Assembly: GCF_000424065.1 (NCBI RefSeq)
Contig: NZ_KE384127.1
Location: forward strand, 63,626-105,966
DNA length: 42,341 bases
Direction of reading: 5' to 3'
From: Selenomonas ruminantium subsp. ruminantium ATCC 12561
Lineage (GTDB): Bacteria; Bacillota; Negativicutes; Selenomonadales; Selenomonadaceae
Below are positions 21,573 through 42,341 of this stretch, piece after piece. The notes under the pieces were generated by a model. It searched no databases and was not told the origin of the DNA. It was given only the letters and a program-made list of their open reading frames with translations. How positions within the stretch are numbered: the first letter of the stretch is position 1; each line of letters opens with the position of its first letter. A program made the position numbers and the translations under genes.

Positions 21573-22376
21573 ATGATCAAATTGATTCTTTCCGATATGG
21601 ACGGTACGCTTTTGGACGAAAATAATCAGCTGCCGGCAGAGTTTGATGAGGTGATGGCAGAGCTGCATAAGCGCGGCGTGCAGTTTGCGCCGGCCAGCGG
21701 GCGGCAGTATTATTCTCTGCTGAAGAGTTTTCCGCAGTATGAAGACCGGTTTATCTTTGTCAGCGATAATGGCACGATTGTGCGGCAGCATGGCAAAGAG
21801 CTGTTTTCAGATGTTATCGAGCACGATGTGGCGCGGGAAATCTTCAATAGCGTCAATGATGTGGAGGGCGTTTATAATGTGCTCTGTGGCAAGGAGACGG
21901 TGTATCTCTTGAAGGATAAGCAGCCGGAAGCGCAGATGGCAGAACTCAAGAAGTATTTCCGGGCGGTGGAGATTGTGGACAGCTTTGATGATATCGCCGA
22001 TGAGCCGATTAAGATTTCGTTTTTTACGCCGGATGCGGACGCAGAGGAGAAAATCTATCCGTTATTTGCGCCGTATTATGATTCCATGCAGGTCGTGCTG
22101 GCCAGTGCGTATTGGGTAGATGTGACCAATAAGGGGGCCAATAAGGGCATGGCGGTGAAGGCGCTGCAGAAACGGCTGGGGCTGAAGCCGGAGGAATGCG
22201 CGGTATTTGGCGATTATATGAACGATTTGGAAATGATGGGGGCGGCTTATTACAGCTATGCCATGGAAAATGCGTATCCGCCGGTGAAGGAAGCGGCGCG
22301 GTTCGTGGCGCCGAGCAATGCGGAGCATGGGGTGATGAAGACGATTCGCGGCTTTATGGAACAGGGATTGTGTTGA
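21573..22376 (+). CDS. Cof-type HAD phosphatase
   Basis: 267 residues. Motif I is LILSDMDGTLLDE with the nucleophile Asp. Motif III Lys is in TNKGANKGMAVKAL, and motif IV is FGDYMNDLEMMGAA. The cap domain is of the Cof (C2b) type. Such enzymes dephosphorylate small sugar phosphates or cofactors such as flavin or pyridoxal phosphates; the substrate cannot be read here. Start after GAGGAGT. Probably in one operon with the DUF815 gene. Confidence 0.92.
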   Translation: MIKLILSDMDGTLLDENNQLPAEFDEVMAELHKRGVQFAPASGRQYYSLLKSFPQYEDRFIFVSDNGTIVRQHGKELFSDVIEHDVAREIFNSVNDVEGVYNVLCGKETVYLLKDKQPEAQMAELKKYFRAVEIVDSFDDIADEPIKISFFTPDADAEEKIYPLFAPYYDSMQVVLASAYWVDVTNKGANKGMAVKALQKRLGLKPEECAVFGDYMNDLEMMGAAYYSYAMENAYPPVKEAARFVAPSNAEHGVMKTIRGFMEQGLC

Positions 22377-22390
22377 CAGCGAGGCTCTAA

Positions 22391-22844
22391 GGACGCCGAG
22401 AGGACAGGCAATATTTTTCCTCCACTTAGACAGGCTTGTCAAACGTTGCGGAAAAACATCGCCTGTTCTCTCGGCTGGAACTTGGTGATTGATTGGCTTA
22501 CATCCAGGATAAAAGGACGCCGCGGGACAGGTTATATTTTTCCTCCGCCATAGACAGGCTTGTCAAAAGCTGCGGAAAAACACAACCTGTCCCGCGGCTG
22601 GGCTTGGTCGTTTGCTGTTGACAGCGGCGTGCTAAGGACGCCGGGGAGCAGGTAATATTTTCCTTCGTCATAGGCAGGCTTGTCAAAAGCTGAGGAAAAC
22701 ATCACCTGTTCCCTGGCTGGGCTGTACTGATATGATGTTTACATCTATATGCTAAAGACGCCCGCGGGGCAGGTAATATTTTTCCTTCGCCATAGACAGG
22801 CTTGTCAAAAGCTGCGGAAAAACATCACCTGCCCCGCGGGCTGG
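22391..22844 (+). repeat. Four covarying hairpin repeats (array 1)
   Basis: Copies at 22391-22478, 22514-22601, 22636-22720 and 22756-22844. Each reads GGACGCC, a variable GC-rich arm, TATTTTCCTTCGCC-like sequence, CATAGACAGGCTTGTCAAAA, GCTGCGGAAAA, the complementary arm, and GGCTGG. Arms differ between copies but pair within each copy (for example GCGGGACAGG/CCTGTCCCGC and CGCGGGGCAGG/CCTGCCCCGCG). Units are about 120 bp apart and preceded by ACATC-like sequence. They fill the gap between the HAD and queT genes. Confidence 0.85.
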
Positions 22845-22922
22845 GTTTTGTGTACTTGAATTGGACTTGTAACGAGGTGGCGGGATAGGTCTGGATAAGT
22901 GTTTGATAGGAGTGTGAGTTTT

Positions 22923-23408: not shown

Positions 23409-23424
23409 GAGCTTTCTTGTGCAA

Positions 23425-23762
23425 GGACGCCCGCGACGGCAGGTAGTATTTTCCTTCGCCATAGACAGGCTTGTCAAAAGCTGCGGAAAACACCACCTGC
23501 CGTCGCGGGCTGGGCGTGGTAGCAGATGGGCCTTACATCTCGGTGCAAAGGACGCCCGTGATGGCAGGCAGTATTTTCCTTCGCCATAGACAGGCTTGTC
23601 AAAAGCTGCGGAAAACACCACCTGCCGTCGCGGGCTGGGCGTGGTAGGAGATGGGCCTTACATGTCGGTGCAAAGGACGCCCGTGACGGCAGGCAGTATT
23701 TTCCTTCGCCATAGACAGGCTTGTCAAAAGCTGTGGAAAACACCACCTGCCGTCGCAGGCTG
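23425..23762 (+). repeat. Three covarying hairpin repeats (array 2)
   Basis: Copies at 23425-23513, 23550-23638 and 23674-23762, very alike. The core CATAGACAGGCTTGTCAAAA is the same as in array 1, with arms such as CCCGCGACGGCAGG/CCTGCCGTCGCGGG. CTTACAT-type sequence lies before the second and third copies, 13-17 bp upstream. Confidence 0.85.
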
Positions 23763-31307: not shown

Positions 31308-31334
31308 AGCTGTTGGGTTACATCATGGCATGAA

Positions 31335-31552
31335 GGCCGCCCGCGACAGCAGGTAATATTTTCCTTCGCCATAGACAGGCTTGTCAAAAGCTGCGGAAAA
31401 CAACACCTGCCGTCACGGGCTGGTGCGTGGTGTTTGAGGTTGTGGTTTACATCTAGGTGTAAAGGACGCCCGCGACAGCAGGTAATATTTTCCTTCGCCA
31501 TAGACAGGCTTGTCAAAAGCTGCGGAAAACACCACCTGCCGTCACGGGCTGG
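31335..31552 (+). repeat. Two covarying hairpin repeats (array 3)
   Basis: Copies at 31335-31423 and 31463-31552 with the same CATAGACAGGCTTGTCAAAA core. The arms CCCGCGACAGCAGG / CCTGCCGTCACGGG pair with a few G-T or mismatched steps. TTACATC lies before both copies. Confidence 0.8.
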
Positions 31553-31584
31553 TGCGTGGTGTTTGTGATTGTAGTTTACATTAA

Positions 31585-31677
31585 AGCAGGCAGTAGAGTC
31601 AGGAAATAATACCTTTCGGCAGCGTTTGGCAAGCTTGTCTAAGCGGACGAAAGGTATTATTTCCTGACGGCTTGCCG
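31585..31677 (-). repeat. Inverted, diverged copy of the hairpin repeat
   Basis: Arms GTCAGGAAATAATACCTTTC / GAAAGGTATTATTTCCTGAC pair perfectly over 20 bp. The loop has AAGCTTGTC as in the other inverted copy at 23828. It lies before the ulaF promoter region. Confidence 0.7.
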
Positions 31678-31816
31678 AGTAGAAAATGTGTACGAGCACA
31701 AATTTTCTAAACCTATTGAAATGTCGCTTTTTGTGTTGTATGATATGTGTGTAAGTAATCCTAATGGATACCAATCGGTAATAATGTGTGCATAGCACAA
31801 TGTTGGAGGGGAAGTT

Positions 31817-32518
31817 ATGTTAGAAGAACTGAAAGAGAAAGTCTACGAAGCCAATATGCTTTTGCCGAAGCATCATCTGATTACCTTTACCTGGGGCAAT
31901 GTTTCCGGGATTGACCGGGAGAAGGGGCTGTTTGTCATTAAGCCGTCCGGGGTGGAATATGATGTGATGAAGCCGTCGGATATGGTGGTTGTGGATTTGG
32001 ACGGCAACAAGGTGGAAGGTGACCTCAATCCGTCTTCTGATACCGAAACGCATCGGATTTTCTATAAGGAATTCCCCAACATTGGCGGCGTGGTGCATAC
32101 CCATTCCCGCTGGGCAACGATTTTTGCACAGGCCGGGCAGGGGGTGCGTGCTTATGGCACGACGCAGGGCGATTATTTCTATGGGGAAATTCCCTGCACT
32201 CGCGATATGACCGAGGAAGAAATCAAGGGCGCTTATGAATACAACACCGGCGTAGTGGCAGTGGAACGCTTCAAGAAATACGGCATCAATCCGGATTATG
32301 TACCGGCTGTGCTCGTCAAGAATCATGGCCCCTTCACCTGGGGGACGGATTGCTTCAACGCAGTACACAATGCCGTGGTGCTCGAAGAAGTGGCCATGAT
32401 GGCCTTCCATACCCAGATGCTCACGCAGGACCGCGACCCCATGCCGCAGGTGCTGCTCGACAAACACTTCCTGCGTAAACATGGCCCGAATGCTTATTAT
32501 GGGCAGAAGAAAAAATAA
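31817..32518 (+). CDS. ulaF: L-ribulose-5-phosphate 4-epimerase
   Basis: 233 residues, AraD/FucA class II aldolase fold. It converts L-ribulose 5-phosphate to D-xylulose 5-phosphate, which enters the pentose phosphate pathway. Substrate loop [20 protein letters not shown] (about 30-49); zinc His pair in [12 protein letters not shown] and a further His in [10 protein letters not shown]. Start after TTGGAGGGG. It is separated from the preceding gene by 500 bp of repeats but is in the same direction. Confidence 0.94.
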
Positions 32519-33141: not shown

Positions 33142-33174
33142 AAAAACTCCCTGCAAGCCTAAAATTGCAGGGAG
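33142..33174 (-). terminator. Terminator of the short hook gene
   Basis: On the minus strand CTCCCTGCAA / TTGCAGGGAG with a 7-nt loop and then TTTTTG. A similar hairpin follows the long hook gene at 38466-38504. Confidence 0.88.
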
Positions 33175-33183
33175 CTGGTTGTT

Positions 33184-34752
33184 TTACCGTTTCATATTAA
33201 TCATGGTTTCGAGCATTTCATCACTTACGGTGATGACCTTGGAGTTGGACTGGAAACCACGCTGGGTGATAATCATATCGGAGAATTCGTTGGCGATGTC
33301 GACGTTGGACATTTCGAGAGCGGAGGGTGTGATGGAACAGCCGAGGTCAGAAGCACCTTTCACATTTGGTGTGCCGGAGTTGTTTGAGGTTTGATACAGG
33401 CTGCTGCCCGTTTTGGTAAGACCGGCGGCATTAGAGAATTGGGCGATGGCCACCTGAGCTTCCGGCTGTATGACACTATTCGTATATACACCTGTAATCA
33501 CACCGGAACTGTCGATGGAAATGCTCTTGAGTGTACCTGCAGCATTGCCGTCTGGTGTTGCATTAATGGTATTGATGTCTGCGTAGGAGGTTACTGTGCT
33601 GTAATCGAGGACAATACTCTGTGGACGAGTGGAGCCATTAGGTGCGCTGACTGATGCTGTCAGGGAAATAGTCGCAGCACTAGTTGTGCTGACAGCTGTA
33701 GGCGTGTAGCTGAGAGTTGTTGCATCATACGTATCACGATTAAGTGCGGTAGGAGTGCTAAAACTAGTCGCTTCACGTAAAACACCATCTTCGTCAAAGG
33801 TCAATGTATCTCCTCCAAGACTGTATGTCGTTTTAGAACCATCTGCTTCGGTAACTGTGTCGGTAGAACCTAATAATACAGACCAAGCAGTACCTGTTTT
33901 TGTGACAGTATTACCATTAGTATCTAGATATTGCAACGTGCCAACATCAGCTTTTTCTAGCAAAACTGTAGCCGTATGTACAGAACCAAGGCTATCATAA
34001 AAGTTAAAAGAGGTTGTTACCGGCAGAGAACGTCCTACTGTATAAACACCTGAAGTATATGTGGTTTTTGTGCCATCACTAAAAGTTACTGTAACAGGCT
34101 GTGTAGCGGAAGCTCCAACATAATCTCCAGAGTTAGTGCTGGTAGAAGTTTTCGTAGTAGGGGGGGTCGTAGTGGTGTCGGTATATTTAAAAGAATATTG
34201 TGTAACGACCGGGGGATTGGATTTTAGGTTATAGCTGTAAGTGGTTTTTTCTGTAGCTTTTGCAGCCATCGCCTTACCAATCTGAATGGATATGTCTGTA
34301 ACTGCGCCGGAAGTAGACACCACGCCGTCCGTTCCCATCCATCCCTGTACTTTCATGCCGTTGCCGGGCATAACATAATTACCGCTTTCATCAAATTCAA
34401 AGGCGCCATTGCGCGTGTAATAAGTTTCGCTGCCGTTTTTTACAACAAATAAGCCATTGCCGGACAGGCACAAATCGGTATTTTTGCCGGTAGATTGTAC
34501 GGCGCCATCTGTAAACAGCGTATCAATGGTGGATACCCCTACGCCCAAACCAATCTGTTTAGGGTTGGTGCCACCGAGATTCCCCGTAGGTGCAGAGGCA
34601 TTGGCTGTGGTTTGGCTCAAGGTATCGGCAAAGGTCACACGGCCGGATTTGAAACCTGTAGTATTTACATTGGCAATGTTATTGCCAACAACATCCATTC
34701 GGGTCTGATGACCTTTTACACCAGAAACACCGGAATACATTGAACGCATCAT
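33184..34752 (-). CDS. flgE: Flagellar hook protein FlgE, short variant
   Basis: 522 residues. The N-terminal MMRSMYSGVSGVKGHQTRMD, VVGNNIANVNTTGFKSGR region and the C-terminal region ending SNVDIANEFSDMIITQRGFQ and SKVITVSDEMLETMINMKR are the conserved hook/rod domains. The middle (about 145-390) is Thr/Ser-rich and variable, forming the outer hook surface. It is longer than the enterobacterial protein (about 400). The first 130 and last 95 residues are nearly the same as in the long variant at 35965, while the middle differs. Start ATG after AAAGGAG. It is the hook gene facing the promoter in the sequenced orientation of the invertible segment. Confidence 0.93.
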   Translation of the reverse strand: MMRSMYSGVSGVKGHQTRMDVVGNNIANVNTTGFKSGRVTFADTLSQTTANASAPTGNLGGTNPKQIGLGVGVSTIDTLFTDGAVQSTGKNTDLCLSGNGLFVVKNGSETYYTRNGAFEFDESGNYVMPGNGMKVQGWMGTDGVVSTSGAVTDISIQIGKAMAAKATEKTTYSYNLKSNPPVVTQYSFKYTDTTTTPPTTKTSTSTNSGDYVGASATQPVTVTFSDGTKTTYTSGVYTVGRSLPVTTSFNFYDSLGSVHTATVLLEKADVGTLQYLDTNGNTVTKTGTAWSVLLGSTDTVTEADGSKTTYSLGGDTLTFDEDGVLREATSFSTPTALNRDTYDATTLSYTPTAVSTTSAATISLTASVSAPNGSTRPQSIVLDYSTVTSYADINTINATPDGNAAGTLKSISIDSSGVITGVYTNSVIQPEAQVAIAQFSNAAGLTKTGSSLYQTSNNSGTPNVKGASDLGCSITPSALEMSNVDIANEFSDMIITQRGFQSNSKVITVSDEMLETMINMKR

Positions 34753-34758
34753 GATAAA

Positions 34759-34848
34759 TCACTTCTCCTTTATCCCATAAACTGTTGCAACTAAGCGACG
34801 TTCCTTGTCAAAGGCCGTAATGCGAATCCCTGCATAACGGCGAATCAT
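34759..34848 (-). CDS. Short leader open frame before flgE (short variant)
   Basis: 29 codons from ATG, MIRRYAGIRITAFDKERRLV followed by ATVYGIKEK. The end of this frame (FDKERRLxxxVYGxKEK, TGA) is kept upstream of the long hook gene as FDRERRLSLIVYGVKEK, where its start is lost. The stop lies 6 bp before the flgE ATG, and the flgE ribosome site is inside the frame. Its ATG begins at the edge of the inverted repeat. It may be a leader peptide, or merely DNA conserved since duplication. Confidence 0.35.
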   Translation of the reverse strand: MIRRYAGIRITAFDKERRLVATVYGIKEK

Positions 34849-34892
34849 AGTTTTTTCCTATGGAAAGAATGTTTTTATAAACCTATACTTTT
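34847..34892 (+). repeat. Left 46-bp inverted repeat of the invertible segment
   Basis: Begins ATAGTTTTTTCCTATGG and ends TTTTTATAAACCTATACTTT T. It pairs with 35695-35740 in inverted orientation with 42 of 46 positions equal; the four differences are all in the centre (positions 18-25). This is the layout of recombination sites for a Hin-like recombinase, which is encoded between the repeats. Confidence 0.9.
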
Positions 34893-34926
34893 CTGAAAAG
34901 CAGTTTTCCTTCCCAATCTACAATGT

Positions 34927-34953
34927 TTATCGGAGAGAATGCGATTTTTCTTA
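34927..34953 (-). promoter_or_regulatory. Sigma-28-type flagellar promoter inside the invertible segment
   Basis: On the minus strand TAAG (34950-34953), 15 bp, TCCGATAA (34927-34934). This matches the sigma-28 pattern TAAA-N15-GCCGATAA in all but two positions, with exact spacing. It points to the short hook gene, with the inverted repeat in the 5' untranslated part. After inversion it would point to the long hook gene. Confidence 0.75.
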
Positions 34954-34998
34954 AGTAAAAAATTTATTTTCGCAAAAATTCTTTTTTTGTGAAATGTT

Positions 34999-35054
34999 AA
35001 CAAGAAGCGTAACAGCCATAAGTATTGGTATTTGCGGCTGTCACGCTTCTTGTT
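34999..35054. terminator. Large hairpin between recombinase and flagellar promoter
   Basis: Arms AACAAGAAGCGT(A)ACAGCC and GGCTGT(C)ACGCTTCTTGTT, 18 bp, covering the last recombinase codons. It should keep recombinase transcription from running into the hook promoter. Confidence 0.75.
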
Positions 35055-35643
35055 TTATCTGTTTACACTTCACGTAGAACGTGGATATGGGCATGTTGCA
35101 GGCTTTGGCTGCTTGCGTGAGGCTGCATTTTCCACTGTGCCACAGGTCATATTGACCATAAAAATTTTCCGGCAGCGGCTTTCGTGGCCGGCCAAAGCGT
35201 ACACCGCGTTCCTTGGCTGCAGCGATTCCCTCCGCCTGCCGCTGGCGAATGTTGCGGCGTTCATTTTCTGCCACAAAGGACAATAACTGCAAAACCATAT
35301 CGCTGATAAAGGTTCCCAACAGGTTCTTGCTGCGCCGTGTATCGAGCAGCGGCAGGGCGATAACCACGATATCCGCGCCCTTTACCTGCGTAATATAGCG
35401 CCATTCGTCCATAATCTCTTTATAGTTACGGCCTAAACGGTCAATGGATTTGACATACACTACAGAATCCTTAGTCAGCCTGCGCACCATTTTGCGGTAA
35501 TTGGGGCGGTTGAAATCTTTGCCGGAAATTTTATCCATATAAATATTGGCTGCCGAAACTCCTGCCTGTTTCAACGCCACTAACTGACGGTCTGGATTTT
35601 GTTCCTTTGTACTCACTCTTACATAGCCATAAATTTTTGACAT
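35041..35643 (-). CDS. Hin-like serine recombinase (DNA invertase)
   Basis: 200 residues, the size of Hin/Gin invertases. The catalytic Ser is in YGYVRVSTKEQNPDRQ (Ser11). The Arg-rich motif VYVKSIDRLGRNYKEIMDEW and the dimer helix SDMVLQLLSFVAENERRNIR are conserved. A C-terminal helix-turn-helix follows (about 150-195: GVRFGRPRKPLPENFYGQYD, CSLTQAAKACNMPISTFYVK). It starts after TAGGAGG and lies wholly between 46-bp inverted repeats that separate two hook genes, so those repeats are its likely substrate. Confidence 0.95.
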   Translation of the reverse strand: MSKIYGYVRVSTKEQNPDRQLVALKQAGVSAANIYMDKISGKDFNRPNYRKMVRRLTKDSVVYVKSIDRLGRNYKEIMDEWRYITQVKGADIVVIALPLLDTRRSKNLLGTFISDMVLQLLSFVAENERRNIRQRQAEGIAAAKERGVRFGRPRKPLPENFYGQYDLWHSGKCSLTQAAKACNMPISTFYVKCKQIKQEA

Positions 35644-35694
35644 AAATCTACCTCCTAAAAATATATATGGTCTATTGTAAAAGATTTATTGCAA

Positions 35695-35740
35695 AAAAGT
35701 ATAGGTTTATAAAAATGTACTTCCCATAGGAAAAAACTAT
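35695..35740 (-). repeat. Right 46-bp inverted repeat of the invertible segment
   Basis: AAAAGTATAGGTTTATAAAA, centre ATGTACTTCC, then CATAGGAAAAAACTAT. Reverse complement of 34847-34892 with four central mismatches. Its outer edge abuts the TATAACG element that separates it from the long hook gene. Confidence 0.9.
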
Positions 35741-35872
35741 AACGAGGGAGATGCGGTATCCCACTTCCATAAGTGGAGGAATATCTTGGAACAGATGGTG
35801 GAGAATTACCCGCCTCGTTGAAACGCTAAGAGGAAGTTTTACCTACGGCAAAACGGGAACAATAGCGTTATA
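35738..35872. mobile_element. TATAACG-bounded element, copy 2
   Basis: Starts TATAACGAGG and ends CGTTATA. The right half matches the copy at 17580-17718 (GCCTCGTTGAAACGCTAAGA, AGTTTTACCTACGGCAAAAC). It has been inserted between the right inverted repeat and the long hook gene: removing it restores the alignment with the leader of the short hook gene. Confidence 0.65.
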
Positions 35873-35905
35873 ACATACCGTTCGCATGGATTCGCAGTAC
35901 GGTAT

Positions 35906-35934
35906 TTGACAGGGAACGTCGCTTATCTTTGATA
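35906..35934 (+). promoter_or_regulatory. Possible fixed promoter of the long hook gene
   Basis: TTGACA (35906-35911), 17 bp, TTGATA (35929-35934), just before the ribosome site. The TTGACA part is also present before the short gene as conserved sequence, but the -10 is not. If used, the long gene would not depend fully on inversion. Confidence 0.3.
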
Positions 35935-35964
35935 GTGTATGGGGTAAAGGAGAAGTGATTCATT

Positions 35965-38460
35965 ATGATGCGTTCGTTATATTCAGGAGTTTCGGGGCTT
36001 AAAGGGCATCAGACGAAGATGGATGTTGTGGGCAACAACATTGCCAATGTAAATACTACTGGCTTTAAGTCCAGCCGCGTAACTTTTGCAGATACCCTTA
36101 GCCAAACCCAAGCCGGGGCCTCTGCGCCAAGGGGAAATCTTGGCGGTACCAATCCCAAACAGATTGGCTTGGGGGTAAGTGTGGCCAGCATTGATACCAT
36201 TTTTACGGATGGCTCAGTGCAGGCTACGGGGAAAAATACCGATTTGTGCTTGTCCGGCAATGGTTTGTTTGTTGTGAAAAAAGGGGATGAAACGTACTAT
36301 ACTCGTGATGGTGCTTTTGAATTTGATGCAAATGGCAATTATGTCCTGCCGGGGAGTGGTTTGAAAGTACAAGGCTGGATGTTTGAAAATGGCAATATTT
36401 CTACGAATAGTGACCCCACCGATATTGTGATTCAATCCGGAAAGTCCATGAAACCAACAGCCACAACGCTGGCTACCTATGCCAATAATGTAAAGGCAGA
36501 TAGTGCCGTGATAACGAAGGTAAATGGTTGCGATAAAACGAATTGGACTTGCACGAATGGTATGCCCTGTGATTTGGTGTTGACTGGAGATATCAAGGTG
36601 GCGGGAACTCCTGGTACCACTTATAAGCTTGATGATGTTTATTCCACTACCGTTAAGGATTTATCTGCTTCAACTGCACTTGAGGTAAATAAATATCATT
36701 CCCCGGTAACGGTCACACTGAATGGTGGCACAACACATTCGTTTGAAAATACCTCTACGGATAAGACCTGGCGTTATGGATATGTTTTGGATAGTACGAC
36801 AGGTGCTTCATCTAATGATAAAGTTACAGCGAAAAAGGGCATTGTAGATGTTACATTAGAAAAGGACTATGGTGGTGGCAATGTTCGTACAACGACTGGC
36901 GTGGATGGAACAACGTATACCTATGGTGACCTTGTAACGATTGAAAATACGACTATTGGTGATACGGTTACGCAAATGGATGCCAGTGAAACTTTAGTGC
37001 TGACTTTAGCTGATGGTACCACTCATGATGTATCGCCCGTAGGCCCTCCACAGTCGTATGTTATTGGTACGGATACATATACTTATGGTGGTGTTACATC
37101 TAAAGTCGTAGGAGCAAAAATTACGTTCACCCCAGATAAGATGACCGTTACATCTAGTGAAGGTGATGGCACCTCCTTGCGCTTTGGCACAACTACAAAT
37201 ATTAATGAAGGTTATGCACTGGAGGCCGTAACTGGAAGTGCTACCGCCACAGCGACTTCACCATTGGTATTAACGCTTAAGGATGGCAGGACGATTTCTG
37301 TAACAAGCAGCAGCACGCCGCCGGGACCTTATGCTGTTGGTGATAACTATGCAGATGCATTTACCACTACCCCGGCACAAGTACCGAGTGGGACAAAAGT
37401 GCGCATTGAATTGAGTGATGGTACTTTCCATGACGATATGATTCCCACAGGTACTACATATACCGTTGGTGGTTCTTATACCTATACATCAAGTGGTGGT
37501 ACTGGTACGCCAGTGACGGCTACAATTGTACAGTATGCTCCCTTGACCGAAATAACTAATGTTGAGAAACAAACGAAAATAACCGGTGTTAAGTATAATG
37601 ATAATACTCTGGTAGAAGAAATTATTCCGGGAAGTGTTACGGCCTCCGGCACGGAAGCTTTATCACTCACATTTTCTGATCAGACTACGCAGACAGTGAC
37701 ATCCGGAACCTATAATATAGGCCATAGCCTGCCAATTACGACAATCCTCAATGTATATGACAGTGATGGCGGTGTCCATGCTGTTCCGGTGTATTTCACC
37801 AAGACCGCTACAGGTAGTGGCGTTACTGCGAGTGATGGTAATCAGTGGACGATTAATCTGGATGGTTCCAATGTGGCGGGAACAACCAACACGATTACGG
37901 ATTCCAGTGGCACAATTACGGTTGACATGAAGCCCGTTACAGTTCAATTTTCAACCTCCGGGCAAATGTTGACCGGAAGTGGCAATATCGAGTTGACCAT
38001 GACAAATGGTGCAAATCATACCCAAACGGTGGCAATTGATGTTTCACAATTGACGCAGTTTGTTGGTGACAGCACCTTTAATGGTACAACCGATGGTAAT
38101 CCGGCAGGAACGTTGAAGTCTATTTCCATAGATAGCTCGGGGATTATTCAGGCTACTTATACAAATGGTGTGAGACAGGCTGAAGGACAGATTGCCGTGG
38201 CGCAGTTTACAAATGCAGCCGGCCTGACGAAGACAGGAAGCAGCCTTTATCAGGCATCTAATAACTCCGGAACACCCAATGTGCAAACAGCAACTGCACT
38301 GGGGTGTGATATAACGCCTTCCGCCCTCGAAATGTCCAATGTCGACATTGCCAACGAATTCTCTGATATGATTATCACCCAGCGTGGTTTCCAGTCCAAT
38401 TCCAAGGTTATCACGGTAAGTGATGAAATGCTTGAAACCATGATTAATATGAAACGGTAA
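35965..38460 (+). CDS. flgE: Flagellar hook protein FlgE, long variant
   Basis: 831 residues, about twice the usual length. N-terminal MMRSLYSGVSGLKGHQTKMD, VVGNNIANVNTTGFKSSR and the last 49 residues (from ITPSALEMSNVDIANEFSDM on) equal those of the short variant. The middle, about 145-735, is a Thr/Ser/Gly-rich stack of beta-type modules with repeated LxLxDGxT-like strands (ALSLTFSDQTTQTVTSGTYN, LVLTLKDGRTISVTS, LVLTLADGTTHDVS), which suggests internal duplication and a bulky outer domain. Start ATG after AAAGGAG. Convergent with the hydrogenase operon. Confidence 0.92.
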   Translation: MMRSLYSGVSGLKGHQTKMDVVGNNIANVNTTGFKSSRVTFADTLSQTQAGASAPRGNLGGTNPKQIGLGVSVASIDTIFTDGSVQATGKNTDLCLSGNGLFVVKKGDETYYTRDGAFEFDANGNYVLPGSGLKVQGWMFENGNISTNSDPTDIVIQSGKSMKPTATTLATYANNVKADSAVITKVNGCDKTNWTCTNGMPCDLVLTGDIKVAGTPGTTYKLDDVYSTTVKDLSASTALEVNKYHSPVTVTLNGGTTHSFENTSTDKTWRYGYVLDSTTGASSNDKVTAKKGIVDVTLEKDYGGGNVRTTTGVDGTTYTYGDLVTIENTTIGDTVTQMDASETLVLTLADGTTHDVSPVGPPQSYVIGTDTYTYGGVTSKVVGAKITFTPDKMTVTSSEGDGTSLRFGTTTNINEGYALEAVTGSATATATSPLVLTLKDGRTISVTSSSTPPGPYAVGDNYADAFTTTPAQVPSGTKVRIELSDGTFHDDMIPTGTTYTVGGSYTYTSSGGTGTPVTATIVQYAPLTEITNVEKQTKITGVKYNDNTLVEEIIPGSVTASGTEALSLTFSDQTTQTVTSGTYNIGHSLPITTILNVYDSDGGVHAVPVYFTKTATGSGVTASDGNQWTINLDGSNVAGTTNTITDSSGTITVDMKPVTVQFSTSGQMLTGSGNIELTMTNGANHTQTVAIDVSQLTQFVGDSTFNGTTDGNPAGTLKSISIDSSGIIQATYTNGVRQAEGQIAVAQFTNAAGLTKTGSSLYQASNNSGTPNVQTATALGCDITPSALEMSNVDIANEFSDMIITQRGFQSNSKVITVSDEMLETMINMKR

Positions 38461-38465
38461 TATAG

Positions 38466-38504
38466 CAATCCCCCTGCAATTTACTATTGCAGGGGGATTG
38501 TTTT
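38466..38504. terminator. Bidirectional terminator between flgE and hydA
   Basis: CAATCCCCCTGCAAT / ATTGCAGGGGGATTG, then TTTT. It serves the convergent long hook gene and the hydrogenase operon. It is related to the hairpin after the short hook gene. Confidence 0.88.
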
Positions 38505-40242
38505 AGTTGAACGTATACGGTTTATCGACTTTATGGTAGTGCGTATGGAGGAGTTCGTGGGCTTTTTCGCTTAGGGGCTCGCCGAGGAAATCGTGGTAGA
38601 GGGTCTGGATATCCGGGTTTTCGTGGGATTTGCGGATAGGCAGGTTCTTGTCGATTTCGTAGAGGGCGGCCATGCGTTTTTTGCGGATGGCGTTGGTGGT
38701 GCCGATGGGCTGGCCGCCGCCGCCGATACAGCCGCCGGGGCAGGCCATGATTTCGATGAAGTCGTAGGGGCTGGTACCCTTTTTGACCTGTTCCATGATG
38801 GTGCGGGCGTTTTTGAGGGTATGGGCAACGGCGATGCGCACGTCACGGCCGGGCAGGCTGACGGTGCATTCTTTGATGCCGTCAAAGCCGCGCACGTCCA
38901 GGAATTCGAGCTTTTCGAGGGTCTTGCCGGTGACTTTTTCGTAGACGGTGCGAAGCGCCGCTTCCATGACGCCGCCGGTAGCGCCGAAGATGGCACCGGC
39001 GCCGGAGGAGAGGCCCAAGGGGCTGTCAAAGTCGTTTTCGGGCAGTTTGCCGATGGACAGGCCCACGTATTTGATGAGTTTGATGAGCTCGCGGGTGGTC
39101 AGCACAATGTCCACATCGCGGCAGCCGTCGCGGCCCATTTCGGGGCGGGCGGCTTCAAATTTTTTGGCGGTGCAGGGCATGATGGAGACGGTGACGATTT
39201 CCGCAGGCGTTAGCCCTGCTTTTTCGGCGTAGTAGGTTTTGGCAATGGCGCCGAACATGCTCATGGGGGATTTTGCCGAAGACAGGTGGTCGATGCAGGA
39301 GGGGAAGTGCTTTTCCATATAGCTGACCCAGCCCGGGCTGCAGGAGGTCATCATGGGGAAAACTCCACCGTGTTCGAGGCGATGGAGGAATTCGTGGGCT
39401 TCTTCCATGATGGTTAAATCCGCGCCGAAGTTGGTGTCAAATACTTTGTCAAAGCCCAAAAGTTTCAGGGCGGTGACCATCTGGCCTGTGACGATGGCGC
39501 CTGGTTCCAGGCCAAAGGCATCGCCTAAGGCCACGCGGACGGAGGGGGCCACCTGCACGATAACGTGCTTATTTTTGTCCTGTAGGGCATCGAGTACCTT
39601 TTGGGTATCGTCTTTTTCGACGATGGCGCCAGTGGGGCAGACAAGGCTGCACTGGCCGCAGAGAATGCAGTCGGTTTGTTCCATGGGCTTGTTAAAGGCG
39701 GTGGTCACGGTAATGTCGCTGCTGCGTCCGGCGTAGGTCAGGGCAGCAATGCCCTGTACGTCCTTGCAGGCGCGGATACATCTGCCGCAGCGAATGCATT
39801 TTGCCGGGTCACGCACGATGGCGGGGTTCGTCTCAATGCGCGGTTCTTCCTTGACCACGCTGGGCAGGTGGGATTTCAAGATGTTGAAGCGGCTGCAGAG
39901 TTTTTGCAAATCGCAGTTTTGGTTGCGGGGGCAGCTCAGGCAGTCTTTGTGATGGTTGGCCAGCATAAGCTGGAGAATGGATACCTGCGTATCGCGGACA
40001 ATCTGGGTGTCGGTATGGACGTCCATGCCTTCCCAGACTTCGGTGGAGCAGGCGGCCAGGAGTCTCCTTTTGCCGGTGACTTCCACGGAGCACAGGCGGC
40101 AATGCGCTTTGATGCGCTGGTCTTCATGGTAGCACAGGTGAGGAATGTCGATGCCGATTGTCTGGGCGGCCTGCATGATTTTCGTGCCTTTGGGCACTTC
40201 GATGGGGATATTGTTGATGGTCAGATGAATCATTTCGCTCAT
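38503..40242 (-). CDS. FeFe-hydrogenase catalytic subunit (HndD/HydA-like)
   Basis: 579 residues. From the N-terminus: 2Fe-2S domain (CYHEDQRIKAHCRLCSVEV, LLAACST), His-Cys cluster (HHKDCLSCPRNQNCDLQKLC), two 4Fe-4S motifs (CIRCGRCIRAC, CILCGQCSLVCPTGA), then the H-cluster domain with MMTSCSPGWV, IMPCTAKKFE and MACPGGCIGGGGQP. It makes or uses hydrogen, with electrons from the partner subunits. It overlaps the NuoF-like gene by 4 bp. The first H-cluster motif has SCSP where textbook enzymes have SCCP. Confidence 0.94.
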   Translation of the reverse strand: MSEMIHLTINNIPIEVPKGTKIMQAAQTIGIDIPHLCYHEDQRIKAHCRLCSVEVTGKRRLLAACSTEVWEGMDVHTDTQIVRDTQVSILQLMLANHHKDCLSCPRNQNCDLQKLCSRFNILKSHLPSVVKEEPRIETNPAIVRDPAKCIRCGRCIRACKDVQGIAALTYAGRSSDITVTTAFNKPMEQTDCILCGQCSLVCPTGAIVEKDDTQKVLDALQDKNKHVIVQVAPSVRVALGDAFGLEPGAIVTGQMVTALKLLGFDKVFDTNFGADLTIMEEAHEFLHRLEHGGVFPMMTSCSPGWVSYMEKHFPSCIDHLSSAKSPMSMFGAIAKTYYAEKAGLTPAEIVTVSIMPCTAKKFEAARPEMGRDGCRDVDIVLTTRELIKLIKYVGLSIGKLPENDFDSPLGLSSGAGAIFGATGGVMEAALRTVYEKVTGKTLEKLEFLDVRGFDGIKECTVSLPGRDVRIAVAHTLKNARTIMEQVKKGTSPYDFIEIMACPGGCIGGGGQPIGTTNAIRKKRMAALYEIDKNLPIRKSHENPDIQTLYHDFLGEPLSEKAHELLHTHYHKVDKPYTFN

Positions 40243-41483
40243 GCGTGCGTACCTCCAAGGTCAAAAACTTCTGGGAATTTAATCATGGCCGATTGCAAGC
40301 TGTTTTGGGCGGTTTCGCCTAAGCCGCAGAGGGAGGACATGCTCATGACGCGGGCGATGGTGGCCATGGTCTTGATGTCTTCCGGTACAGCGGTGCCTGC
40401 TGCCAATTTGTCGAGGATAATCTTGATATGCAGGTTGCCTTCGCGGCAGGGGGTGCACTGGCCGCAGCTTTCCTCGGAGAAAAATTCCTGATTCATGCGC
40501 AAAAAGTCGAGTACGCTTGTGCGCTTGTCGATGACGAGGATACCGCCGGAACCGACCATGACACCTGCGGCCTGCAAATCTTCGTAGGTGTAGGGGGTGT
40601 CCAAAATGGAACTGTCTGCGACTTTGCCGGAGGCACCGCCAAATTGAATGAGCTGAATCTCCCGGTCGTGCTGTATGCCGCCGGCGAGGTTGTAGACGAT
40701 TTCCCGAATGGTGGTGCCAAACGGGATTTCAAAGACACCGGGCTTGTTGACGTTGCCGGCTACGCTGATCATTTTCGTGCCGATGGATTCGCCCATGCCG
40801 CAGTGCATATAGGTATCGCTGTCCACCAGGAGATGGGGAACAAGCGACAGGCTTTCGACGTTATTCAAACAGGTGGGGCGGGCAAAGAGGCCGCTGACCT
40901 TGATAAAAGGCGGTTTCATGCGGGGGCGGCCGGCCTTGCCTTCGATGGAGCGGATAAGGGCGGTACCTTCGCCGCAGACATAGGCGCCGCCGCCGGAATA
41001 CAGGTGAATGTTGAAGTCAAAGCCCTTGCCCAAGATGTTTTCACCCAGGAAACCGTAGTTTTTGGCCTGACGAATGGCGTTTAAGAGCAGGGGGCGGAAA
41101 CAGGCGTATTCGGCGCGCATATAGATGTAGCCGTCGGTGGCGCCGCAGACGAAGCCGGCGATAATCATGGCTTCGATGAGGTTGAAGGGGTCGTTTTTGA
41201 TGAGTTCGCGGTCTTTGAAGGTGGTGGTTTCGCCTTCGTCTGCATTGCAGATGACGACCTTGTTTTCGCCGCGTACAGCACGCGCCTGACTCCATTTGCG
41301 GCCCAAGGGGTATTCGGCACCGCCGCGCCCTTTGATTTTGGCATCGGAAAGCAGGGTACAGATATCCTCCGGGTCCATGTTGACGGCTTTTTTGAGGGCG
41401 GAAAAACCGCCGATATTCATATAGGAGCCGATGGAGGAGGTGTCGTAGGTACCAAAGTTTTTGGTGAGAAATTTTATGCTCAT
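40239..41483 (-). CDS. NuoF-like flavoprotein subunit of the hydrogenase
   Basis: 414 residues, the size of NuoF, not of the 600-residue HndC/HydB, so the extra N- and C-terminal iron-sulfur domains are lacking. FMN and nucleotide motifs are present but changed: GRGGAEYPLGRKW (usual GRGGAGFPTGLKW), CNADEGETTTFKDR (usual EPGT) and GGAYVCGEGTALIRSIEG (usual CGEETAL). The 4Fe-4S ligands appear in ESCGQCTPCREG and SSLCGLGE. Expected to pass electrons between NAD(P)H and the hydrogenase. Start ATG after AGGAGG. Middle gene of the operon. Confidence 0.9.
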   Translation of the reverse strand: MSIKFLTKNFGTYDTSSIGSYMNIGGFSALKKAVNMDPEDICTLLSDAKIKGRGGAEYPLGRKWSQARAVRGENKVVICNADEGETTTFKDRELIKNDPFNLIEAMIIAGFVCGATDGYIYMRAEYACFRPLLLNAIRQAKNYGFLGENILGKGFDFNIHLYSGGGAYVCGEGTALIRSIEGKAGRPRMKPPFIKVSGLFARPTCLNNVESLSLVPHLLVDSDTYMHCGMGESIGTKMISVAGNVNKPGVFEIPFGTTIREIVYNLAGGIQHDREIQLIQFGGASGKVADSSILDTPYTYEDLQAAGVMVGSGGILVIDKRTSVLDFLRMNQEFFSEESCGQCTPCREGNLHIKIILDKLAAGTAVPEDIKTMATIARVMSMSSLCGLGETAQNSLQSAMIKFPEVFDLGGTHA

Positions 41484-42028: not shown

Positions 42029-42341
42029 TAAAAAGCCATAAACCTTCCGTAGAAAGTTAACTTTTATGTTCCATTCCTCATTCACCGCGTCCGCTTTTGC
42101 CGTCCTGAAGAACAGACTACTCTCACGTTTGATATAACGCTCCAGAGGCTTAAATTCCCGACTAACGAATCGGTACATATCTGCATTGACTTGTTGGTGT
42201 CAGCTTGCAGATTTAGATAGCTCCGCTTCCCCATAGCGTTTGAGATTCAAAGATGCTTGGAAGTCACGGCCTATCACATTGCCACAGACGGGACAGACAT
42301 ATGTCCTGTCTGACAGCTTCAGGTCTTTATTTACATATCCG
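42029..42341 (-). pseudogene. Partial tnpB (IS605 OrfB) with in-frame stop
   Basis: The minus strand enters the window inside tnp[38 protein letters not shown], the second CxxC zinc half and the D..AS.N motif of the RuvC-III part. The frame stops at TGA (42200-42202). The same frame continues as REFKPLERYIKRESSLFFRT and AKADAVNEEWNIKVNFLRKV, which looks like the usual TnpB tail, up to a stop near 42029. So the stop at 42200 may be a nonsense mutation. The rest of the gene lies beyond the window. It faces the hydrogenase operon on the same strand. Confidence 0.72.

Follow-up and report, generated by a model that had tools for sequence, protein, structure and literature searches.

A predicted invertible promoter cassette between two divergent hook-protein genes in Selenomonas ruminantium

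Abstract

The segment at positions 34847–35740 of a 42,341-nt stretch of Selenomonas ruminantium subsp. ruminantium ATCC 12561 is most probably an invertible promoter cassette that chooses between two hook proteins, as judged from its sequence and from related genomes. It encodes a serine recombinase, is bounded by inverted repeats and carries one predicted outward flagellar promoter. The flanking flgE genes encode hook proteins of 522 and 831 aa.

Results

The window, the whole 42,341-nt stretch analysed (NZ_KE384127.1, positions 63,626–105,966), lies within contig C11 of a 3.39-Mb genome that is 99.97% complete. An inverted-duplicate block identified by repeat search spans 33162–38482, and the only ORFs of at least 100 aa in 33184–38460 are two flgE genes and a recombinase gene. 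No Rfam family matched above its gathering score between 33 and 38.6 kb. Elsewhere in the window, tandem arrays with a period of about 120–129 nt and a roughly 90-nt unit (AAGGACGCC...GGCTGG) occupy 22371–22845, 23419–23762 and 31333–31581. Sequence similar to the unit occurs in L039, L040 and L041, and the arrays matched no Rfam family at gathering score. A RAGATH-18 RNA was found at 42074–42148 on the minus strand (63 bits, gathering score 44.9).

The short flgE (33184–34752, minus strand, 522 aa) and the long flgE (35965–38460, plus strand, 831 aa) both read outward from the segment. The original prediction had placed one such gene outside each repeat, and positions and Pfam domains confirmed this. 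Both products contain Flg_bb_rod, FlgE/F/G D1, FlgE_D2 and Flg_bbr_C domains above Pfam cut-offs, and both pass the FlgEFG subfamily model TIGR03506 (232 and 238 bits, cut-off 70). Neither passes the two best NCBIfam FlgE models, the best scoring 392 bits for the short and 381 for the long protein at a cut-off of 469, and this was counted against the switch reading. The long flgE has relatives 95 and 96% identical in L039 and L040. Solved hook proteins are among the best PDB matches of its product, headed by 5jxl, an 851-aa FlgE.

Alignment of the long and short FlgE with seven relatives revealed long invariant stretches at the N- and C-termini and a middle that differs in length and sequence. 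Across the genus, FlgE middles fall into several dissimilar types that are common to different loci. These types also occur in the extra flgE genes of other genomes and, weakly, in operon flgE genes. The flgE genes at these loci encode proteins of 515–522, 668, 790–797 and 808–831 aa. Structures predicted for the two FlgE proteins from 8 and 9 sequences had mean pLDDT values of 34.6 and 37.1, too low for conclusions on how the variable domains fold. The dN/dS of the long flgE is 0.08 (window/G011) and 0.11 (window/G012). That of the short flgE is 0.07 in both comparisons (window/G002 and window/G005), with synonymous change near saturation. For the recombinase, values of 0.04 (window/G011) and 0.06 (window/G009) were calculated, and the comparison with G002 yielded no estimate. 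These ratios point to purifying selection on all three genes. The long flgE has an extra leader (35741–35883, plus strand) that is absent on the short side. The leader of the long flgE thereby exceeds that of the short one by about 130 nt. Equal expression of the two genes is therefore not assured, and this too was counted against the switch. RNA structure in the leader was not significant (z −1.8).

The recombinase gene lies inside the segment at 35041–35643 on the minus strand and encodes a small serine recombinase of 200 aa, supported by Pfam Resolvase (PF00239, 106 bits), PDB matches and dN/dS. Its catalytic RVS and DRLGR motifs align with gamma-delta resolvase. No NCBIfam model scored above its cut-off. 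The best PDB scores were obtained with Sin (98 bits) and gamma-delta resolvase (80 bits), against 60 bits for "DNA-invertase" entries, which we take to be Gin. The original prediction had called the enzyme Hin-type. That description holds for its size, within the ~190–200 aa of Hin/Gin-type switches, and for its position between inverted sites, but not for its subfamily, which is nearer to the resolvases. The closest named relatives of the recombinase are in Selenomonas ruminantium assemblies (96, 94 and 89% identity). A second recombinase elsewhere in the genome is 50% identical, and inspection by eye recognised no adjoining flagellar gene. In 12 of 22 genus genomes, a recombinase of this group and flgE are neighbours on one contig, and G021 presumably has such a pair too, across a contig break. 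Searched family-wide, the recombinase found matches at E 1e-72 or better in 25 of 189 genomes.

Repeats of 46 bp, equal at 42 of 46 positions, had been proposed to bound the segment, and they were found as described at 34847–34892 (left site, minus strand) and 35695–35740 (right site, plus strand). The full arms extend over 34847–34898 and 35689–35740 (52 nt, 88% complementary). In 100 dinucleotide-preserving shuffles of 34847–35740, the best 46-nt inverted match was 29/46, with a mean of 25.9. The repeats are nested in a larger inverted duplication of flgE and its leader, with 5′ arms at 34336–34833 and 35884–36381 (79%) and 3′ arms at 33162–33570 and 38074–38482 (78%). Inverted similarity alone is therefore no proof of recombination sites. 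A 14-base core of the repeat had 15 matches in 12 of the 22 genus genomes scanned, all at flgE loci, and its reversed control had none in the same genomes. The possibility that the repeats are a mere by-product of the flgE duplication was rejected, because recombinase loci that have no inverted flgE pair also contain the core. When related loci were compared by eye, markers inside the sites traveled with the segment and markers outside them traveled with the flgE gene. The two marker sets bracket the exchange to about AAAAGTATAGGTTTATAAA. The putative crossover stretches are 34873–34892 in the left site (minus strand AAAAGTATAGGTTTATAAAA) and 35695–35714 in the right. The site of related mini-invertons closely resembles the palindrome AAAAGTATACTTTT, and crossover would occur at its central AT.

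Inside the segment, a sigma-28-type promoter motif (TTAAG-N16-CCGATA; 34928–34954, minus strand) points toward the short flgE. This motif, TTAAGAAAAATCGCATTCTCTCCGATA, is 35 bases from the left site, and a motif of the same type lies 33–35 bases from the same site in all five intact two-flgE loci and in the naturally locked locus of G005. The genome encodes FliA (252 bits, cut-off 190). It also has seven flagellin-domain matches, and the upstream regions of six were compared. The same motif type, with N15 spacing, precedes two of these six (TTAAGGAATTCCAAAAAGCTCCGATA on C14 and TTAAGAAATTTTCCAAATCACCGATA on C31). Of the flagellin-domain matches, four are tandem genes at L148 (C31:27192–33000), only one of them with the motif upstream; another, on C14, is strong, and two are weaker. 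Counts of the sigma-28 pattern exceeded those of a reversed control mildly, at 12 versus 4 in this genome and 136 versus 87 over 22 genomes, and a looser pattern gave 39 versus 31. The pattern is thus not rare in itself, which was counted against the switch reading. The genome-wide count alone is unconvincing as proof of the motif, and the promoter case rests on motif position and conservation instead. On these grounds the segment likely carries one outward flagellar promoter. A scan for sigma-70 promoters found 3 where 2.8 were expected, so no promoter is claimed for the recombinase. Between the promoter and the recombinase, at the recombinase 3′ end, is a hairpin with 26-nt arms that are 85% complementary (34999–35054). 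It may act as a terminator; a terminator scan found 2 candidates with 1.4 expected, and this hairpin was not among them.

The full arrangement of recombinase, outward promoter motif, two sites and two divergent flgE genes was found in 5 of 22 genus genomes: the window's own, G002, G009, G011 and G012. The second site of G002 was read by eye, and the long flgE of G009 has a run of N near its end. In G012 the linkage is presumed, because the second flgE sits at the end of a separate contig and is cut off there. In the recombinase tree, a branch (99/95) sets these five loci apart from the rest, with the order (G002,(G009,(G012,(window,G011)))). The G009 locus L041 matches the window collinearly on both flanks. 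The left-hand match covers 31669–32518 and both ends of the left flgE, with pieces back to 21501, and the right-hand match covers 35898–41477. The part of the window at about 23.5–31.6 kb is missing from L041. Between these collinear flanks, 34847–35662 aligns on the opposite strand. The G011 locus L039 is collinear in the window's orientation throughout. The comparison of orientation in relatives that had been suggested as a check therefore returned both states. Relative to the long-type flgE, the promoter faces the gene in G009 and G012 and faces the other way in the window and G011; G002 is without a long-type flgE. The two orientations at the same locus are a difference between species, with one orientation per genome. 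At L079:4283–4994, also in G009, about 0.7 kb absent from the window separates the recombinase start from its site.

Two further loci show other changes. In G012 the long-type flgE adjoins the aldolase side of the locus, and the hydrogenase side has a gene that resembles the left genes of G009 and G011. Genes there have therefore also been moved by homologous exchange or by a larger inversion, which was counted against the switch reading. G005 retains a site, the promoter motif and a short-type flgE. Its recombinase survives as a C-terminal remnant at a distance of more than 1 kb, and two fragments are left of its second flgE. As read from these remains, this is the state expected after loss of a switch with the promoter at the short gene.

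A search of the window's genome with the short FlgE found no flgE beyond the two at this locus. Four weaker matches (28–40% identity) lie together at one other place, on contig C28, and are read from their sequence as FlgF/FlgG-like. The flagellar operon on contig C8 contains flgD and matches to fliL, fliM, fliY and fliO, that to fliL falling under the model's cut-off. Between flgD and fliL, no flgE or TIGR02530-like gene is present in the window's genome, G009 or G011. In G002, flgD has no adjoining flgE, and the stretch examined did not contain fliL. Among genomes of the other arrangement, which have a single extra flgE, the genes flgD, TIGR02530-like and flgE are consecutive in all six operons examined (G004, G007, G008, G015, G016 and G018, leaving out G014 and G021). 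Genome completeness is 99.97% for the window's genome, 100% for G002, 68% for G009, 88% for G011 and 83% for G012. The absence of a further flgE is firm for the window's genome and G002 only, because the completeness of the other three is lower. The original prediction had held that the switched product would be the hook protein. The outward motif, the opposite orientation in a relative and the lack of any other flgE in the genome support this.

A related recombinase precedes an extra flgE in eight genus genomes (G004, G007, G008, G014, G015, G016, G018 and G021), of which G021 was counted presumptively, its recombinase being on another contig than flgE. A small gene lies between recombinase and flgE in the seven aligned loci; that of G015, the only one tested, is TIGR02530. 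At these loci, about 100 nt with a sigma-28-type motif lie between a post-recombinase hairpin and a second site. The motif faces away from flgE in all seven readable loci, and that of G008 is degenerate. These loci may be hook invertons of the ON/OFF kind, caught in the OFF state by these assemblies, or switches that have become locked in that state. Seven OFF states in seven would be rare even under random flipping, so this was counted against the switch reading. The single-gene invertons, those before flagellin genes in other genera of the family included, resemble the two-flgE locus in their related recombinase and mostly in a related site core AAAAGTATA and a sigma-28-type motif between sites. 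They differ in having a ~100-nt inverton outside the recombinase gene and one target gene switched ON/OFF.

Among 11 loci with a related recombinase in other genera of the family, flagellin is directly downstream in two. At L172:6040–9877 (G164), a recombinase before flagellin is accompanied by a ~100-nt invertible-looking stretch with a sigma-28-type motif toward flagellin. L176:4823–10468 (G188) has the same layout, with a weaker motif candidate identified by eye. Other relatives of the recombinase stand before glycosyltransferase, acetyltransferase-like, helicase or unidentified genes. Sites of the AAAAGTATAC type accompany the recombinase before a glycosyltransferase gene at L173:5266–8083 (G169) and that before an acetyltransferase-like gene at L174:2785–4707 (G146).

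Discussion

In the proposed mechanism, the recombinase would act on the two inverted sites and flip the segment. One sigma-28-type (FliA) promoter near one end of the cassette would read out through the adjoining site. The 522-aa flgE would be transcribed in the orientation of the assembly and the 831-aa flgE after inversion. With these two as the only flgE genes found in the genome, every motile cell should assemble either the smaller or the larger hook, and there should be no hook-less phase. The terminal D0/D1 regions, the assembly core, are common to both proteins and the middle is different, so the switch would alter the exposed body of the hook. The anatomy, the lack of other flgE genes, the opposite orientations in related genomes and the selection on all three genes are observed; action of the recombinase on these sites, a working promoter and an inversion rate high enough for phase variation are inferred.

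The locus could instead be a fixed inverted duplication around a resident recombinase that no longer flips, with the orientation differences between species being rare events. This would fit repeats embedded in the larger inverted flgE duplication and a single orientation per genome, and on the recombinase tree the promoter-toward-long state need change only once. We nevertheless consider it unlikely. The recombinase is held at a dN/dS of 0.04–0.06, and both flgE genes are constrained though one of the pair would never be expressed. In G005, with its recombinase reduced to a remnant, the promoterless gene has decayed, and the site core is present at flgE/recombinase loci that have no inverted flgE pair.

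A slimmer chance is given to a shuffling device, in which the recombinase and the long inverted homologies would exchange hook variable regions between genomes or positions and promoter choice would be secondary. Dissimilar variable-region types common to different loci and the long-type gene on the other flank in G012 would be in keeping with such exchange. However, all five intact loci retain the promoter cassette and sites, which shuffling would not need, and recombination at the sites would leave the flgE coding sequence in place relative to its flank. That the recombinase is a leftover mobile-element resolvase with no role for flgE is hardly credible, even though the solved structures closest to it are those of two resolvases, Sin and gamma-delta, and the second, 50% identical recombinase has no flagellar neighbour recognised by eye. 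Its group adjoins flgE in 12 of 22 genus genomes, those of the two-flgE loci fall together in the tree, and 33184–38460 has no ORF of at least 100 aa besides the two flgE genes and the recombinase.

An invertible promoter cassette is thus the reading that we prefer, and on balance, though with less assurance, we favor a wider account built on it. The hook would be phase variable, flgE having left the operon for a switch in one Selenomonas lineage. Each cell would make one of two hooks with a common assembly core and about 300 residues of different exposed body. Its origin would lie in a single-gene ON/OFF inverton of the kind that sister species still carry, one of a broader group of promoter invertons in the family that are linked to recombinases and act on genes for flagellin and hook.

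Phase variation of flagella has been described for the filament and as the ON/OFF control of flagellar operons, and the hook is usually regarded as a fixed universal joint. Among the literature matches listed for the hook or its gene in connection with phase variation, promoter inversion, recombinases or Selenomonas, in a search mostly of sources outside subscription journals, no hook-protein switch was found. The word "hook" is absent from the main text of PMC5903667 and of PMC11868660, the latter mentioning Salmonella Hin/fljBA flagellar phase variation. Within the literature searched, promoter inversion is already known and hook switching appears to be new. If the switch is real, hook stiffness, antigenicity or phage and antibody recognition could alternate without loss of motility. 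A switch that swaps hooks and keeps motility would make the role of variable hook domains testable, in mechanics and in immune or phage recognition, with isogenic 522- and 831-residue hooks in one cell type.

In Salmonella, the recombinase gene and the promoter lie within the invertible segment and a repressor relay is used. The likeness to that system is that a serine recombinase and an invertible segment decide between two flagellar structural proteins. The Selenomonas locus differs in that the product would be the hook and that the alternative genes lie on either side of the segment, where a single promoter would drive them directly, with no repressor relay. Its recombinase is also nearer to Sin and gamma-delta than to DNA-invertase entries. 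The sap locus of Campylobacter fetus encodes S-layer protein and inverts by homologous recombination. Like the present locus, it has one flipped promoter between two divergent homologous surface-protein genes, whereas here a recombinase gene lies in the segment and the sites are short. Clostridioides difficile has a flagellar switch upstream of flgB that involves RecV (PMC5903667). It likewise places DNA inversion upstream of flagellar genes but uses a tyrosine recombinase and turns the flgB operon ON or OFF, in contrast to the choice between two hook proteins proposed here.
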